DNA of 44,987 bases from a virus, in IMG/VR virus record IMGVR_UViG_3300025073_000081, positions 1-44,987 of that record; one strand, written 5' to 3'. The translations under genes were made by a program, and so were the position numbers. This document shows, in pieces, positions 7,704-44,981 of the stretch; position 1 is the first letter of the stretch; each line of letters begins with the position of its first letter. The notes under the pieces are model-generated. The model worked only from the letters and a program-made list of their open reading frames with translations. It was not told the DNA's origin and ran no database searches.

Positions 7704-8432
7704 TTAAGTTGCTCCATTTACTGATTTCGTAGTGGCAGTAGAAGCAACACCATAAGTTTTAATGCCTGTTGACTGGGTGACACTATCTTTTGTCTTTACT
7801 GTTGTAGGACCTGCTGCAACTGCCGGAGCAATAGACATAGTAACTACATTCCATGTCTGAGAATTACCAGCAAAAGAAACTGTGTTTGACCCCGTTGATA
7901 CAGTTCCGTTTGAGTCCCAGTACATAGGACCTGGGTTACCGCCTCGTGAAGTTCCAGTAACACCACTGTTGTTCGTTACATCGTTTCCACCCGCTCTATT
8001 TCTAACAAAAGCAATTACCCATGAGTTTTCTGCTACAACACTTAGAGCAGGACTAGCTGTTACCGTAGTAGACACTGTTGTTTCTTGACCAGTCGCCGTA
8101 GCATCGGGCTGTCCCGTTTGTTTTGCACCCGAGAATGAAGCAACACGCAACGTGTTATTTGCTCCCGCAGTTCCTTGTGTGACTAAGGTATTTGCACCTG
8201 AATCTGGGTTAACTAGATACCAGAGCGAACATCTCTGGTTCGCACCAGAAAGTGTCTGGTCATTGAACACTCCTTCTGTCAGAGCAACACCATTATACGT
8301 AATACCCGTAAATGTCCCGTCACCAGAGTTTGAAAGAACCCCAACAACCAAAATACGGTCAGAACCCGATCCTACCGTATAAGAGAATCCTCCTCCATCT
8401 CCTGCTGCTGCGTTGTCAAATGCAATTGCCAT
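7704..8432 (-). CDS. Putative fibre or surface protein, beta-sandwich
   Basis: A 242-aa protein rich in Gly, Ser, Thr, Asn and Val. Patterns such as RILVVGVLSNSG, YNGVALTEG, LWYLVNP and NSWVIAFVRN recur in phage and surface proteins with jelly-roll-like folds. The last 35 residues are a Thr/Ser/Val-rich tail. There is no signal peptide. It lies 3 bp after the fibre-like gene at 8436-10229 and probably belongs to the same appendage. Function is inferred from composition and position. Confidence 0.5.
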   Translation of the reverse strand: MAIAFDNAAAGDGGGFSYTVGSGSDRILVVGVLSNSGDGTFTGITYNGVALTEGVFNDQTLSGANQRCSLWYLVNPDSGANTLVTQGTAGANNTLRVASFSGAKQTGQPDATATGQETTVSTTVTASPALSVVAENSWVIAFVRNRAGGNDVTNNSGVTGTSRGGNPGPMYWDSNGTVSTGSNTVSFAGNSQTWNVVTMSIAPAVAAGPTTVKTKDSVTQSTGIKTYGVASTATTKSVNGAT

Positions 8433-16473: not shown

Positions 16474-16543
16474 GGTTCTAGTGCTTGTTTACAACTTTTT
16501 ATTTACAGGGTGCAGCGACCACCCGAACAAGTCCTCTAGAACT

Positions 16544-16561
16544 CCCTCGAAAGGTCGAGGG
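16544..16561 (-). promoter_or_regulatory. Perfect hairpin in capsid-operon leader
   Basis: Seven base pairs (CCCTCGA/TCGAGGG) close a four-base loop, within the leader between the promoter at 16651-16677 and the scaffold ATG. No T tract follows. It may stabilise the mRNA or regulate translation. Confidence 0.5.
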
Positions 16562-16573
16562 CTGTACTCTTGT

Positions 16574-16585
16574 TTCTCTGGGGAA
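16574..16585. repeat. Dispersed palindrome, one-base variant TTCTCTGGGGAA
   Basis: In the capsid-operon leader, about 60-70 bases downstream of the predicted start. One mismatch from the consensus. Confidence 0.6.
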
Positions 16586-16650
16586 AAACGAGGGTACAAC
16601 CATCAACCGGAGTTTGTTCTATTCGGATTTCAAAGAATGTTACTGAGTGC

Positions 16651-16677
16651 AGTATACCACCCTTTTCTTGTTGTCAA
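16651..16677 (-). promoter_or_regulatory. Late promoter for scaffold-capsid-fibre operon
   Basis: On the minus strand TTGACA (16672-16677) is followed after 15 bases by TATACT (16651-16656), which is preceded by TGG, giving an extended -10 (TGGTATACT). The spacer is short, but the extended -10 compensates. It sits in the only large gap of the capsid operon and would drive everything from 16473 down to base 28. Confidence 0.65.
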
Positions 16678-16691
16678 CACTGTTAATCAAC

Positions 16692-22420: not shown

Positions 22421-22428
22421 TAAAAATG

Positions 22429-22797
22429 TGGAGGTGGGGGGAATCGAACCCCCGTCCTAAATACGTTCACCTATAACGTCTACAAAGACTATCTTGTTTT
22501 GCTCCCACGAGCGGTATACAAGCATACCAAATTAGAATGTGTGACCAGCGACTTGCCCTCAGAGTGGGTATGTAGTTTGCCAGGTCCTGATATTTCAGAG
22601 TATCCAAGCGACCTGGCGTTCTTAGTACTCCGCCATATCTAGGCGTTTACGAGTTCTTCAGAGAAGAAGGCAAAGGCGAGATACGGGCTTGGGATAGAAT
22701 CCTCAGCAGATTTTTTTACTTGAGATTTAAGGTGTTCTCAAGCATTCACCTCTTTGCAGTTGTAAATGAACTATATCAGTCAAAACCTAGCACCCCC
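22429..22797 (-). ncRNA. ssrA: Phage-encoded transfer-messenger RNA (tmRNA)
   Basis: A full-length tmRNA of 369 nt. The 5' end GGGGGTGCTAGGTTTTGAC pairs with the 3' end CACCTCC plus discriminator A; the T arm is GGGGG-TTCGATT-CCCCC. CCA is not encoded (CAT follows). The tag frame most likely resumes at GCT, nucleotides 91-93 (22705-22707), close to the E. coli position, and ends at TAG 22639-22641. The tag is 22 aa, AEDSIPSPYL... ending EELVNA. Several pseudoknot-forming segments follow. With SmpB and alanine it rescues stalled ribosomes. The tag end LVNA differs from the usual LAA. A dedicated promoter lies 7 bp upstream of the mature 5' end. Confidence 0.92.
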
Positions 22798-23875: not shown

Positions 23876-23881
23876 ATCCCT

Positions 23882-23930
23882 ATTATCCCTTGTATAAGCT
23901 ATTAAAGACAATAAGAGCTATCAACAACTA
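23882..23930 (-). promoter_or_regulatory. Repeat-family promoter for zinc-ribbon operon
   Basis: Minus strand: box GTTGTTGATAG (reverse orientation), TTGTCT (23906-23911), an 18-nt spacer ending CTTATACAAGG, then GATAAT (23882-23887). Predicted start at or next to the ATG at 23875. Confidence 0.7.
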
Positions 23931-25077: not shown

Positions 25078-25136
25078 AGAGATATTGTATCTTACTTTTT
25101 AAGCTACTCAAGAGGTTTTCTTTCCCTCCTATATTT

Positions 25137-25182
25137 ATTATCCCTTATACAAGGGGAAACGACAATAAAGGTTATCCCCAAC
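25137..25182 (-). promoter_or_regulatory. Repeat-family promoter for 3D-domain operon
   Basis: Minus strand: box GTTGGGGATAAC (25171-25182), TTGTCG (25060-position equivalents 25160-25165), a 17-nt spacer containing CTTGTATAAGG, then GATAAT (25137-25142). The leader of about 53 nt contains AGGAGGG near its start. Confidence 0.75.
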
Positions 25183-30781: not shown

Positions 30782-31123
30782 TTATAGCAGTTCGAGCAGT
30801 TGGTTTTTGTTGTTTCCCACAAGTTCTTTAATATGTTCTTCCAGGAACGCCCAGTCTTTTTCACTAGGCTTGTAATTGATTGATTTAAGATAAGTAAGCG
30901 TTTGGAAGAAGATTGTTTGATGTTCTCCGTCGTTGTGACATATACCTGCATGGCATTGTCTACATAGACAAGATGAATTGAAGGCTGAGTCGGAAACTCT
31001 TCCAAGGATATGATGGATTTCAAGGCCACCTTTTGTAGTTCCGTTAGAGCCACATAGGAAACATCTCCAATGTCCAAGGTACAAGAGTCGTACTTCTTTA
31101 GGGAAATCATACTTTAACTTCAT
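30782..31123 (-). CDS. HNH endonuclease
   Basis: A 113-aa protein with a classic HNH zinc motif: CFLCG, GGLEIHHILGR (HH pair), then CLCRQCHAGIC and a last H. This reads as a treble-clef HNH nuclease, often next to packaging or recombination genes. The only in-frame ATG (31121-31123) overlaps the -10 of the promoter at 31122-31127, so with that promoter the mRNA could not contain it; a TTG at codon 13 or a promoter further upstream may be used. The overlapping 117-aa frame at 30757-31110 is rejected because only this frame has the motif. Confidence 0.65.
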   Translation of the reverse strand: MKLKYDFPKEVRLLYLGHWRCFLCGSNGTTKGGLEIHHILGRVSDSAFNSSCLCRQCHAGICHNDGEHQTIFFQTLTYLKSINYKPSEKDWAFLEEHIKELVGNNKNQLLELL

Positions 31124-31169
31124 TATGGCTTGTATAAGGCATTTTAGCAATAATCAGATTGTTGATAAC
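31122..31169 (-). promoter_or_regulatory. Repeat-family promoter before HNH operon
   Basis: Minus strand: box GTTATCAACAAT (31158-31169), TTGCTA (31145-31150), a 17-nt spacer ending CTTATACAAGC, then CATAAT (31122-31127). Strong match to the family. Confidence 0.75.
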
Positions 31170-33696: not shown

Positions 33697-33718
33697 ACTT
33701 TTTATTTATTACTTTTTT

Positions 33719-33766
33719 ATTATCCCTTATACAAGCCATTAGAGCAATAAGAACATTGTGGATAAA
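33719..33766 (-). promoter_or_regulatory. Repeat-family promoter for MoxR-VWA operon
   Basis: Minus strand: box TTATCCACAAT (a perfect DnaA-box TTATCCACA, about 33755-33765), TTGCTC (33742-33747), a 17-nt spacer containing CTTGTATAAGG, then GATAAT (33719-33724). Best-formed member of the family. Confidence 0.8.
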
Positions 33767-35212: not shown

Positions 35213-35225
35213 ATCCTCAATTTTT

Positions 35226-35273
35226 ATTATCCCTTATATAAGCCTTTCAACGCAAATATACGTTGTGGAAAAG
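35226..35273 (-). promoter_or_regulatory. Repeat-family promoter
   Basis: Minus strand: box CTTTTCCACAAC (35262-35273), TTGCGT (35050-equivalent 35250-35255), an 18-nt spacer ending CTTATATAAGG (perfect palindrome CTTATATAAG), then GATAAT (35226-35231). The ATG at 35212 is 13 bases beyond the -10. Confidence 0.7.
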
Positions 35274-37243: not shown

Positions 37244-37250
37244 TCTTTAT

Positions 37251-37298
37251 ATTATGCCTTATACAAGCGATTTAAGCAATAAAACTGTTGTGGATAAA
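37251..37298 (-). promoter_or_regulatory. Repeat-family promoter for nuclease-SSB operon
   Basis: Minus strand: box TTTATCCACAAC (37287-37298, contains TTATCCACA), TTGCTT (37274-37279), a 17-nt spacer containing CTTGTATAAGG, then CATAAT (37251-37256). Confidence 0.8.
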
Positions 37299-41895: not shown

Positions 41896-41933
41896 AACTT
41901 TTTACTTTTTATTTATTAACCCCTTACCTATAT

Positions 41934-41988
41934 ATTATGCCTTATATAAGGGGGTTTTGCAATAAGATTCTAGGTAGTTGGGGATAAC
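41934..41988 (-). promoter_or_regulatory. Repeat-family promoter for accessory operon
   Basis: Minus strand: box GTTATCCCCAAC (41977-41988), TTGCAA (41957-41962), a 17-nt spacer ending CTTATATAAGG (palindrome), then CATAAT (41934-41939). Leader contains AGGTAAGGGG. Confidence 0.75.
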
Positions 41989-42259: not shown

Positions 42260-42715
42260 CTACCAGCTAGAATGATAATAAATCGAACCACCTTCTGGCT
42301 CTGCGAGAATATCCTTCAACAATTTCTCCGTGTGCTTCAAGTCCTCGAAATAGTACTCATCATAATCGGTACTTCCAAAGAAAAACCCAGACTCAGTAGG
42401 TAGAACATTGGGAGCAATCTCTGGCTCTCGTAAAACTTGCTGCACTTTTCCAAGCAAAACACGCAAGGCATCACGTTCAACGTAGTATTCCTTGCAGTCA
42501 TCTAAACCATTTTGCACGTTGTCAACGAACCACTTATGAATAGCGTTCGCCTTTCTCCAGTATCCGATGTCTTCGACAACTTCAGATATACGTTTTGTCT
42601 GAATGTGTGTTGATTTCTTGTTTTTCTTCACAGAAATACTGTACTTTTCTTCTGGCTTCATGTGATTCCAGTTTTTAACGACAGTCTTCTTGTAAAGGTA
42701 CATATCTAGTCCCAT
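42260..42715 (-). CDS. Conserved phage protein of unknown function (MGLDMYLY family)
   Basis: A 151-aa protein with patterns I recall as widespread in phages and some bacteria: MGLDMYLYK at the start, YWRKANAIHKWFVDNV in the middle, and LPTESGFFFGSTDYDEYYFEDL followed by a final YYHSSW. The conservation suggests a specific but unestablished function. No catalytic motif is evident. Confidence 0.65.
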   Translation of the reverse strand: MGLDMYLYKKTVVKNWNHMKPEEKYSISVKKNKKSTHIQTKRISEVVEDIGYWRKANAIHKWFVDNVQNGLDDCKEYYVERDALRVLLGKVQQVLREPEIAPNVLPTESGFFFGSTDYDEYYFEDLKHTEKLLKDILAEPEGGSIYYHSSW

Positions 42716-42721
42716 ACTTTT

Positions 42722-42946
42722 TTAGTTATTGTTTTTAATTGTTGTATTTTGATTTTTAAGTATTTTCAGATTTAGGGGAGCAATTATGCTCCTTCTTCTG
42801 AAGAACCTATCTAGGTCTAATTTTGTATCAAAGTCTGATTGCAGTACAACTACTTCCACCTCGTCTGACATCCAGTAGTGGGACACGGTAGACCCCGTGT
42901 TGTTTCGTTGCTTGTCTTTTCTGTCGCCTACCAAGTAGCACTGCAA
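42722..42946 (-). CDS. Hypothetical protein, TTG start
   Basis: A 74-aa frame starting at TTG 42946 (MQCYLVGDRKDKQ...), acidic in the middle (VSHYWMSDEVEVVVLQSDF) with a basic stretch near the end. No ATG is available upstream in frame. It overlaps the 30-aa gene by 19 bp. Plausible but not certain. Confidence 0.4.
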   Translation of the reverse strand: MQCYLVGDRKDKQRNNTGSTVSHYWMSDEVEVVVLQSDFDTKLDLDRFFRRRSIIAPLNLKILKNQNTTIKNNN

Positions 42947-43020
42947 TATGCATCTCGGTGTGTGGGGTGCTTCTCAGCATTGCCCTTACGATTGGCTACC
43001 TTAACGAGCGATTGATACAT
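42928..43020 (-). CDS. 30-aa peptide gene, putative target of the antisense RNA
   Basis: MYQSLVKVANRKGNAEKHPT... ends HRDAYCSATW. The ATG (43018-43020) directly follows AAGGAG, a strong but very close ribosome-binding site. The 13 bases covering that site and the start (43011-43023) are perfectly complementary to the predicted small RNA encoded just upstream. A 17-aa frame (MKIAPEIKHEG...) in the leader overlaps its start. Protein function unknown; the regulation suggests it matters or is toxic. Confidence 0.45.
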   Translation of the reverse strand: MYQSLVKVANRKGNAEKHPTHRDAYCSATW

Positions 43021-43052
43021 CTCCTTCGTGTTTAATCTCGGGAGCTATCTTC

Positions 43053-43095
43053 ATTATGCCTCAAAAAAGAAAAAGCAAATAAAGTTATCAACAAC
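43053..43095 (-). promoter_or_regulatory. Divergent member of the repeat-promoter family
   Basis: Minus strand: box GTTGTTGATAAC (43084-43095), TTTGCT-like -35, then CATAAT (43053-43058). The middle block is replaced by TTTTTTGAGG and the -35 spacing is irregular, so it is probably weaker. It begins at the end of the upstream terminator. Confidence 0.5.
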
Positions 43096-43096
43096 T

Positions 43097-43122
43097 AAAA
43101 AACCTCCCAGGAGACTGAGAGG
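43097..43122 (-). terminator. Rho-independent terminator of the small RNA and lysis operon
   Basis: CCTCTCAG-TCTC-CTGGGAGG, an 8-bp stem with one G-U pair, followed by TTTTTT (43097-43102). On the plus strand the run is weaker. Confidence 0.8.
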
Positions 43123-43181
43123 CTTTTAGCTAAGAGATGTATCAATTCTTTAGGTATTATCTGGTGGATGTCGTACCAGAC
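43097..43181 (-). ncRNA. Predicted 85-nt small RNA with antisense seed
   Basis: An extended -10 promoter (TGGTATAAT) predicts a start at about 43181 and the terminator ends at 43097. The RNA has a 5' hairpin TCTGGT/ACCAGA (43175-43180 with 43160-43165, 9-nt loop), an unpaired stretch of about 36 nt, and the terminator stem: the standard layout of a trans-acting small RNA. The unpaired stretch contains ATTGATACATCTC (43134-43146), the exact complement of the Shine-Dalgarno and start region of the downstream 30-aa gene. A short frame (MSGTTSTR) begins near the 5' end but is trivial. Confidence 0.5.
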
Positions 43182-43187
43182 ATAGCT

Positions 43188-43229
43188 ATTATACCACAAA
43201 CTGACCTAGTTTCTCCGGGGAATGGGGAT
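43188..43229 (-). promoter_or_regulatory. Small-RNA promoter with palindromic operator
   Basis: Minus strand: GTTATCCCC box, then TTCCCCGGAGAA (43211-43222) lying exactly where the -35 should be, then extended -10 TGGTATAAT (TATAAT at 43188-43193). There is no -35 consensus, so a protein bound to the palindrome could activate or block it. Confidence 0.6.
43211..43222. repeat. Dispersed palindrome TTCTCCGGGGAA, copy 5
   Basis: Intergenic, occupying the -35 position of the small-RNA promoter. The copy most likely to be an operator. Confidence 0.75.
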
Positions 43230-43231
43230 AA

Positions 43232-43486
43232 CTATTCACTCATCATCTTAGAGATTGCCGAACCTGGCATAAATCTCTGAACAATGAACGCATAGAACGC
43301 TCCAGCAACGATTAGTACGTTACCAAACGTCTCCCAAAGTCCAGCAGATACTAGGTAGGTATAGACAGCAGCAGCGAGTAATGAGATTACCAAGAGAATA
43401 CCAAGTGTCGTATACTCTCCAGTTTTAAGCTGATTCTTTAGAAACTGAATAAGTAAAGAAACACCAGCACCAAGGATAAGTTCCAT
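43232..43486 (-). CDS. Holin-like membrane protein
   Basis: An 84-aa protein with three hydrophobic segments (about residues 3-17, 27-47 and 54-70), an amphipathic link and a short charged tail. Size, topology and the position 6 bp after the lysozyme-domain gene fit a holin. A second holin of another family is at 7240-7692. Not assignable to a named family by eye. Confidence 0.6.
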   Translation of the reverse strand: MELILGAGVSLLIQFLKNQLKTGEYTTLGILLVISLLAAAVYTYLVSAGLWETFGNVLIVAGAFYAFIVQRFMPGSAISKMMSE

Positions 43487-43492
43487 AGTTTT

Positions 43493-44608
43493 TTAGATTA
43501 AGTTTTTAAGCTGTGTATTGATAGATACTCCCATGTATTTAGCAACCTCTTTTGCATAGGCATCAGGGTTATTATTATCACTAGATGGGGCATATATCTG
43601 GAAAAACTGTGCAATCGTAAGATCAGCAGAAGAGTTCAGATTAAACCGTTTTCGTGCTTCTGCCTTATATACTGGACTTGTCCCCTTTGCCACAATAGTT
43701 ACCTGATGGATAAGGGCCTTCCAGCCAGTCGCATAGTCTTTGAAGAGTGCGAATCTTCCCGAAGTTCCACATATTCCATATCCTATCTTGAACGGAGAAT
43801 CCCTGAGATTGCCTGGGTTATTATTGCGATAAGAACATGAGCCAACCTTCCAGCCTTCGTGGATTTTCATACCCTCGGCCATTATCTCTATTGAAGACTT
43901 CTTTTCACTCTTTTGAAGAGCAGCTATCTGTTTCTTGATAGCTTCTATTTGAGCCAAAATGGTAGCTATGAGAGCACTTTGGTTAAAAGACACAATCCTA
44001 TCCACATAGGGGGTCAATATAGCGTTCTGAGCTGCCCTGTTGCCGTCTAGGGCATCTATCTCGTACTCTTTATGGTACGGAGTACAGGTGCCTTGGGTAT
44101 TAGGAGTGCAATCCATCACATCTATGACTGGTATTCCCTGCTTCCTTAGTCTATGTACATACTGATGGCGTATTTCATGAGTAAATATGCGGTATAAGTC
44201 GTCAGAGAAATCACCTGCTGGTGATGTGTATACCTCAGTAAACTGAGTACCTGGATACAGCTCATCAAAATAAGTGAAATTACCCATCTGCTTTCCTGGA
44301 TGGAGTAAAGAGAAGTTTGTCTTCGTGAAATCGTATAAAAAGAATACAGCGTGGTATTTCCCCGGAGAAACAACCTTACGCACCTGGTCTTTGATACCAT
44401 CGAGGCCATACAACTCTTGCTCAACTCCATCAAACATTTTATATACGGCAAAAGACTTCCACTTCAGAGGTAGGTCAACGTCCTGGACAGTATATTTCAG
44501 GTCAATACCAAGAGTTTTAGCCTCATACTGGGCCGTTTTTAACAGGTCATCCTCTGCTTGGATGTTGTTATTGTTTCTTAAAATCAGAACATTGTACGTC
44601 TTAGTCAT
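43493..44608 (-). CDS. Endolysin-like fusion: HExxH metalloprotease domain plus lysozyme-like domain
   Basis: A 371-aa protein. Residues about 1-205 form a domain with a zinc motif HEIRHQYVH (H144, E145, H148) and conserved FTYFDELYP upstream and EIDALDGNRAAQN downstream. A linker helix (about 210-240) leads to a C-terminal domain (about 243-371) with MKIHEGW (E251, possible catalytic acid) and RNNNPGNLR (262-269), FALFKDYATGW and FFQIYAPSSDNNNPDAYA, the pattern of phage lysozyme-like hydrolases. It probably cleaves peptidoglycan sugars and, unusually, protein or peptide bonds. No signal peptide; release would depend on the adjacent holin. Confidence 0.7.
   Translation of the reverse strand: MTKTYNVLILRNNNNIQAEDDLLKTAQYEAKTLGIDLKYTVQDVDLPLKWKSFAVYKMFDGVEQELYGLDGIKDQVRKVVSPGKYHAVFFLYDFTKTNFSLLHPGKQMGNFTYFDELYPGTQFTEVYTSPAGDFSDDLYRIFTHEIRHQYVHRLRKQGIPVIDVMDCTPNTQGTCTPYHKEYEIDALDGNRAAQNAILTPYVDRIVSFNQSALIATILAQIEAIKKQIAALQKSEKKSSIEIMAEGMKIHEGWKVGSCSYRNNNPGNLRDSPFKIGYGICGTSGRFALFKDYATGWKALIHQVTIVAKGTSPVYKAEARKRFNLNSSADLTIAQFFQIYAPSSDNNNPDAYAKEVAKYMGVSINTQLKNLI
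44358..44369. repeat. Dispersed palindrome TTCCCCGGAGAA, copy 6
   Basis: Inside the endolysin-like gene, codons V-S-P-G-K, reverse orientation. Confidence 0.7.
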
Positions 44609-44653: not shown

Positions 44654-44935
44654 ATGAGTCTAACATCAGAAGATATAAGGACTTGGCCCACAAGGGATGA
44701 TTTAACAGTCACAAGTTTGAAGCTCTTAGCACTAATTCTGTTCTTCTTCATTCCAGTAGGTATCCTAGCTATCTTAGCTATTGTGATATTCATTGCTGCG
44801 TTTACTGAGCTGTTTATGGGTTTCGTCTATTTTCTCTTTATTATCGGAGTTTTATACTTCGCAGTAATGGTACTGGAGGCAATTATGAGCCTCCGAGGAA
44901 ACGACCAGCCGCATTATAGCCAGCCTGACGAATAG
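44654..44935 (+). CDS. Small membrane protein, only plus-strand gene
   Basis: A 93-aa protein with two closely spaced long hydrophobic segments (about residues 22-50 and 54-74) and a polar tail. It has a textbook ribosome-binding site (AGGAGG, ten bases before ATG 44654), unlike almost all other genes here. The end crosses into the terminal repeat and overlaps the convergent ART-domain gene by 53 bp. Different orientation and translation signals suggest separate control or origin. It might be a superinfection-exclusion or lysis-control protein; that is speculative. Confidence 0.6.
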   Translation: MSLTSEDIRTWPTRDDLTVTSLKLLALILFFFIPVGILAILAIVIFIAAFTELFMGFVYFLFIIGVLYFAVMVLEAIMSLRGNDQPHYSQPDE

Positions 44936-44981
44936 CAGGTTCAAGACTACGGACAGCTTTTTTAGTAGTTCCTAGGCTTTG
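44856..44981. repeat. Terminal direct repeat, right copy
   Basis: Exact copy of bases 1-126. The last six bases of the window (44982-44987) do not continue the repeat. Together with the preceding bases they form tgaacctg, the reverse complement of caggttca at 44936-44943, which looks like a fold-back artefact at the contig end. Confidence 0.95.

Follow-up and report, generated by a model that had tools for sequence, protein, structure and literature searches.

We propose that the gap between the lysis-type and early genes of this phage holds a two-RNA module, in which an antisense-type RNA (RNA1) would compete with the stem that closes a structured domain in an early leader. We regard this as quite possible, if somewhat short of probable. 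Computation directly gives the promoter and terminator motifs, the complementarity, a target that is noncoding and a conserved domain with compensatory changes. The existence of both RNAs, their pairing and the direction of its effect are what we infer. The original prediction had RNA1 pair with the start of a 30-aa gene. We agree that an RNA-RNA contact is plausible, but we believe that it would involve a structured leader and not the start of a gene.

The window analysed here is the virus record IMGVR_UViG_3300025073_000081 over all of its 44,987 bases. Its first 126 bases are repeated exactly near its other end (1-126 versus 44856-44981). We therefore take it for a terminally repeated, probably near-complete genome. 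Nearly every called gene is on the minus strand. The proposed module lies at 42716-43231, a noncoding gap of 516 bp that is the window's longest, with lysis-type genes on one side and early genes on the other. On the lysis side are an 84-aa holin-like protein, a name given by inference, and a 371-aa protein whose C-terminal third matches endolysin-type and tail-type PHROGs. It is important to realize that "early" is here a label taken from a repeated promoter. The 151-aa protein encoded just after the leader is of unassigned function; it has 286 confirmed relatives in viral contigs, and a Pfam search gave no match. A GC-skew origin at the gap was considered and dropped, since the skew has no local extremum there.

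The features that the argument needs are these.

43188-43196, minus: P1, an extended -10 promoter by motif match, TGGTATAAT
43097-43181, minus: RNA1, a predicted noncoding RNA of about 85 nt, delimited as a promoter-terminator unit by motif
43181-43159, minus: 5' hairpin of RNA1, predicted fold
43132-43146, minus: segment A of RNA1, AUUGAUACAUCUCUU, which can pair with 43025-43011 over 15 continuous positions
43098-43127, minus: T1, an intrinsic terminator with a 13-bp stem followed by T6
43053-43094, minus: P2, a weak member of the early-promoter family, -10 CATAAT at 43058-43053, inferred start of transcription about 43046
42716-43046, minus: noncoding leader with which the early operon would begin; the 151-aa gene follows at 42715
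43011-43025, minus: target B in the leader, complementary to segment A
43012-43019, minus: 5' strand of the closing stem, UGUAUCAA, pairing with 42831-42824
42928-43020, minus: the 30-aa ORF of the earlier reader, which we judge not to be a gene
42846-42992, minus: structured RNA core, a three-way junction plus hairpins, with a homologue in the related locus L176
42824-42831, minus: segment C, 3' strand of the closing stem, UUGAUACA, the same letters as part of segment A
42260-42715: gene of the 151-aa protein, first after the leader

Promoters, terminator and complementarity

An extended -10 promoter and a strong terminator had been said to bracket an RNA of about 85 nt, and both motifs are indeed present on the minus strand. 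Exact TGNTATAAT occurs three times in the window, always on the minus strand, and the other two copies lie 17 and 21 nt upstream of called gene starts. With at least 5 of 6 matches there are 12 such sites on the minus strand versus 5 on the plus strand. Five of those 12 are intergenic, compared with 6.3% of bases, and one of the five (31149) overlaps an early promoter. No hairpin+T5 site on the minus strand is stronger than T1 (-14.8 kcal/mol), and the runner-up (-12.9) ends the phage tmRNA. RNA1 would thus have the promoter of its own and the intrinsic terminator that mark a trans-acting sRNA, both as motifs. Its fold (z -3.95) owes most of its stability to the terminator. The 5' hairpin holds up as a predicted fold, but the centre, which had been described as unpaired, is weakly structured rather than fully open, with pair probabilities up to about 0.9 at some bases.

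A near-palindrome, TTCCCCRGAGAAAC, which is possibly an operator, lies at 16572-16585, 43209-43222 and 44358-44371 and at six weaker sites (9 sites at up to 2 mismatches versus 0.52 expected), and a site of this type is also found directly upstream of the P1 counterpart in the related contig L170. The noncoding gap at 16474-16691 likewise has an extended -10 (16659-16651) and a leader of about 170 nt apparently rich in self-complementary stretches.

The early-promoter element, TTATTG(C/T)..CTTRTAYAAGGSATAAT with a palindrome in its spacer, stands ahead of other genes in seven closely similar minus-strand copies (23876-23913, 25131-25168, 31116-31153, 33713-33750, 35220-35257, 37245-37282 and 41928-41965). 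Upstream of several copies there is a TTATCCACA-like box, which we take to be DnaA-box-like. A two-block score built from these seven and scanned over the window gives two further good sites on the minus strand, P2 in the gap (12.4, reached by 0/300 shuffles of the gap) and a stronger one directly upstream of the tmRNA gene. Plus-strand sites scoring 13.0 to 23.8 come from known copies, whose palindromes also score on the opposite strand. The tmRNA gene is complete (22426-22797, Rfam 81.9 bits), although ARAGORN did not report it, and the early-type promoter directly before it is also weak. The P2 sequence, TTGAGGCATAAT, recurs in L170 at the same locus. Because of the family score at 43094-43053, a downstream RNA very likely starts near 43046, which would place B about 22 nt into it. 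Two RNAs from one strand with separate promoters had been proposed, and P1 and the downstream P2 bear this out by motif. The leader has a fold z of -2.83 (1/100 shuffles), and the frames within the gap have coding scores mostly under the in-frame range.

The perfect complementarity of 13 nt between 43134-43146 and 43011-43023 is exact, as claimed. The extended helix with a G-U pair is also there, but it is longer than the 14 pairs first counted: 43146-43132 and 43025-43011 form 15 continuous pairs with one G-U. The longest perfect run of 13 is reached by 0/4000 shuffles of either partner, and the best target of segment A in the window, its own complement aside, is B. This is the sole inverted repeat of its kind in the window (13 nt, loop of at most 200). 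Chance had been put at one in several thousand. That figure depends on the area picked, since under a first-order Markov model the chance is 0.12 for the whole window, 0.0028 for the 516-bp gap and 1.5e-5 for the RNA1 centre against the start region. Inside the gap the complementarity is too good for chance. The RNA1-leader cofold energy of -18.7 is matched by 0/498 other 331-nt windows and by 4/250 other 85-nt windows, and the A:B duplex energy has p 0.006/0.011. The exact two-arm pattern had 0 matches in viral_contigs and genome_contigs.

A noncoding target and a conserved domain

The 30-aa ORF is very unlikely to be a gene. Its codon score is -7.0 bits; the 5th percentile of in-frame sequence lies at -2.0 and the 95th percentile of off-frame sequence at -3.4. 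In this phage a Shine-Dalgarno-like motif lies 3-13 nt upstream of just 7 of the 58 called minus-strand starts, and the usual start context in those 58 genes is A-rich sequence, then T at -1 (69%), with G at -1 rare (3%). This near-absence of Shine-Dalgarno motifs, together with the A-rich/T/ATG starts, should be a pointer to the host group. The ATG of the 30-aa ORF has G at -1 and is abutted by AAGGAG with zero spacer. We therefore reject a translation start as the target, since Shine-Dalgarno-led starts are few here, the -1 base is wrong, the spacer is missing and the score is noncoding. The ATG is not conserved either; the homologous site in L176 reads AAGGCGGTTTTTTCG. Over the following 147 nt the mismatches to L176 fall 19/23/20 by codon position, a lack of periodicity on which we also reject stop-codon read-through of the 30-aa frame. 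BLASTP of the 30-aa peptide against a nearby 29-aa ORF of L170 gave no alignment. The helix was also said to cover both AAGGAG and the ATG. It covers the ATG, but of AAGGAG the perfect 13-mer takes in GAG only.

Two other short frames were rejected. A 17-aa ORF starting at 43054 has an ATG that overlaps the P2 -10, and a 74-aa ORF (42946-42722) scores -14.7 bits. Within the latter one 90-nt stretch at 42898 scores +3.1, inside the in-frame range, so a short coding remnant there is not fully excluded.

What the leader does contain is a domain conserved with compensatory changes between the window and L176. Positions 42992-42846 align with 8231-8377 of L176 over 147 nt, gap-free, at 58% identity, and nhmmer gave 1.1e-6 with the domain as query and 5e-10 with the whole gap. 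The even mismatches by codon position argue that the domain is not coding. All 25 named pairs are kept in both sequences and 8/25 are altered on both sides, versus 0-1 double changes when the partners are slid by 1-3 columns. The structure was drawn from these two sequences, which biases the percentage of paired positions but leaves the count of double changes informative. A covariance model of the domain, run on 81 and 80 sources, found the window and L176 and no third member. The tmRNA was the sole Rfam match of the whole window, with none in the gap. At a lax threshold the best match of 42600-43300 was RNAI (18.4 bits versus a gathering score of 47, E 0.71), below the gathering score that a covariance-model hit must reach for Rfam 15 membership.

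Around this domain the window has a closing stem of 8 bp (43019-43012:42831-42824, p 0.016/0.018), L176 one of 10 bp (8194-8203:8396-8405, p 0.020/0.015) and L180 one of 15 bp (7899-7913:8116-8130, 0/5000). The three stems are unrelated in sequence. Their position around the domain is equal in the window and L176, and in L180 it corresponds by layout only. Helices A:B and B:C are mutually exclusive, because B shares bases with the 5' strand of the stem, and the eight letters of C recur in RNA1 as part of a longer stretch.

Relatives and the weighing of alternatives

Close relatives were sought in viral_contigs with the lysin and the holin-like protein, and none were found. A terminase search gave distant matches only, and a nucleotide similarity search of phages and plasmids gave none or chance-level ones. 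The early-promoter pattern led to L170 (IMGVR_UViG_3300025018_000037; L172 is the same contig and is not counted separately) in viral contigs and to 0 in genome_contigs. L170 is 72% identical to the window in the terminase, 76% in the portal and 63% in the exonuclease. A two-sequence exonuclease alignment search confirmed 117/146 candidate stretches; the best 80 loci were used, including L176 (IMGVR_UViG_3300047496_000063) and L180 (IMGVR_UViG_3300020045_006075).

By eye, L170 and L176 share the layout of a terminator, a P2-like element, a second RNA with its own terminator and structured sequence, between lysis-type and early genes. L176 has a T1-like terminator at the same place (CCTCTCAG..TGGGAGGTTTT), and L170 has one there of different sequence. 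L180 has P2, the second terminator and the closing stem, but its RNA1 is not clearly recognisable. No such module was seen by eye in L173, L174, L175, L178, L185, L188 and L192, at stretches picked by a terminator scan. In L177 and L179 the holin is followed by a terminator and then an SD-led gene, and the module is absent. The remaining loci of the best 80 were covered by the covariance model and the P2 pattern only.

The RNA1:leader pairing sequences in L176 and L170 differ from those of the window. The longest perfect run in L176 is 9 at the homologous site (p 0.014/0.0055); at its RNA2 start the run is 7, an alternative site that is not significant (p 0.13/0.15). L170 has a perfect 10-mer (p 0.046/0.037), plus a second partner of 8 nt downstream, and its alternative site has p 0.53-0.56; the L170 pairing falls on the 5' end of RNA2, whereas L176 uses the terminator/domain strand. 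These p-values are about twofold weaker than they look, because two sites were tried in each relative. L180 has no RNA1:leader run above 7. By duplex energy only the window is clear; L176 is not significant (p 0.15/0.30) and L170 has 0.026/0.055. The test set beforehand, that complementarity persists through changed sequence, thus came out suggestive in two relatives and found nothing in the third. We consider its retention in relatives suggestive, not shown.

The gap could be a boundary element and nothing more, in which the terminator ends the lysis transcript, P1-T1 gives a by-product RNA or is an attenuated promoter opened by antitermination, as is lambda pR'-tR', and the 13-mer is a coincidence. 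We hold this possible, though on the unlikely side. The gap does separate lysis from early genes, it contains T1, the strongest hairpin+T site that the minus strand has, a like repeat somewhere in the window has a chance of 0.12, and L177 and L179 have the terminator without the module. Coincidence fits poorly with a chance of 0.0028 within the gap, with the 0/4000 shuffles in which RNA1 and the leader start match as well, and with segments in L176 and L170 that have changed and are still complementary. A fold in cis, with transcription from P1 continuing past T1 so that one long leader contains both arms of the 15-pair helix and no trans RNA is involved, seems improbable to us. The sequence 43181-42820 does fold well (z -4.4 to -4.7, and -3.8 with the terminator held fixed) and is closed by long-range helices of 5, 7 and 6 pairs. 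But T1 is strong, P2 gives the leader its own start, and once RNA1 and the 13-mer are held fixed the remainder has z -1.9 (3/150). When RNA1 is folded together with downstream sequence, the long-range gain is unexceptional (98/1488 windows are equally good). This counts against our own proposal, and a single 345-nt RNA as the sole explanation is rejected on that ground.

That RNA1 blocks translation initiation of the 30-aa ORF, as first proposed, we find very improbable. The helix covers GAG and the ATG, and the complementarity in L170 begins at the ATG of its 29-aa ORF. Against this stand an SD-less phage, a bad -1 base, no spacer, a noncoding score, an ATG absent from L176, no codon periodicity and two peptides that fail to align. 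The inverted repeat could instead be a pair of DNA-binding sites for a regulator of P1 and P2, each arm lying a few tens of bases downstream of its promoter. This is hardly to be expected of arms that are not palindromic, have no further copies in the window (18 found versus 14.4 expected at up to 3 mismatches) and differ from the repeated operator-like motifs of the phage.

The two-RNA module that we favour would work as follows. P1 would give the terminated RNA1 of about 85 nt, and P2, an early-type promoter, would give a leader with a structured noncoding domain, preceding the 151-aa gene and the early operon. B would be common to two alternative helices, pairing either with C (8 bp, closing the domain) or with segment A (15 pairs). 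RNA1, acting in trans or by P1 read-through of T1, would open the base of the domain, and this may alter elongation, stability or translation of the early operon. Late accumulation of RNA1 would let it bind the early leader and open that base.

Comparison with known phage RNAs

The gene of the c4 RNA lies upstream of that of its target and in the same orientation; c4, isrK and similar RNAs are among the Rfam families. GOLLD and ROOL are associated with phages. In a P4 CI-type system, pairing is expected to end early transcription prematurely. The best reading is a layout that is P4 CI- or c4-like, while the sequence is unrelated. According to PMC4825925, a segment of the P4 CI RNA can pair with two sequences of an untranslated early leader (seqA and seqC), the one upstream and the other downstream. 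Similarly, B is complementary to A upstream (13 nt) and to C downstream (8 nt), with 10 and 8 nt in L170. Unlike here, the P4 antisense RNA in that text is processed from the leader itself and holds the middle segment (PMC4825925); our segment A would be carried, judging by motif, by a separately promoted, terminated upstream RNA.

The P1/P7 c4 RNA is, according to PMC12197685, a short structured antisense RNA that pairs with a phage leader, and RNA1 is likewise short, structured and predicted to pair with one. But c4 in that account pairs around the ribosome-binding site (PMC12197685), whereas the target here is noncoding and RNA1 has no Rfam match to antisense families. The c4-type criterion is pairing with the ribosome-binding site of a translated ORF, and our target ORF is unsupported. 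The same source describes the lambda OOP RNA as antisense to cII and the P22 sar RNA as a small phage RNA acting by pairing (PMC12197685). RNA1 is a candidate of that kind, unlike OOP in lying on the same strand as its target. GOLLD and ROOL are large structured noncoding RNAs (PMC12286853). The leader domain resembles them as a predicted structured RNA of a phage, but it has no Rfam match and its core is 147 nt.

A broader version of our idea is more doubtful still: a fast-evolving A-B-C switch between the lysis and early genes of an SD-poor phage group. The seed of a terminated antisense RNA would copy the 3' strand of the closing stem in a new structured leader RNA. A, B and C would be rewritten together in each lineage, leaving each phage a private pairing code, possibly for late shut-off of early genes or for immunity against sister phages. 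A few model phages are known to control their early leaders by antisense RNA. If our interpretation is true, such control would reach uncultivated phages that barely use Shine-Dalgarno sequences, and A-B-C triplets in the gap between lysis and early genes would serve as a rule for finding it. There would then also be an unclassified structured leader RNA whose pairing segments change together between relatives.
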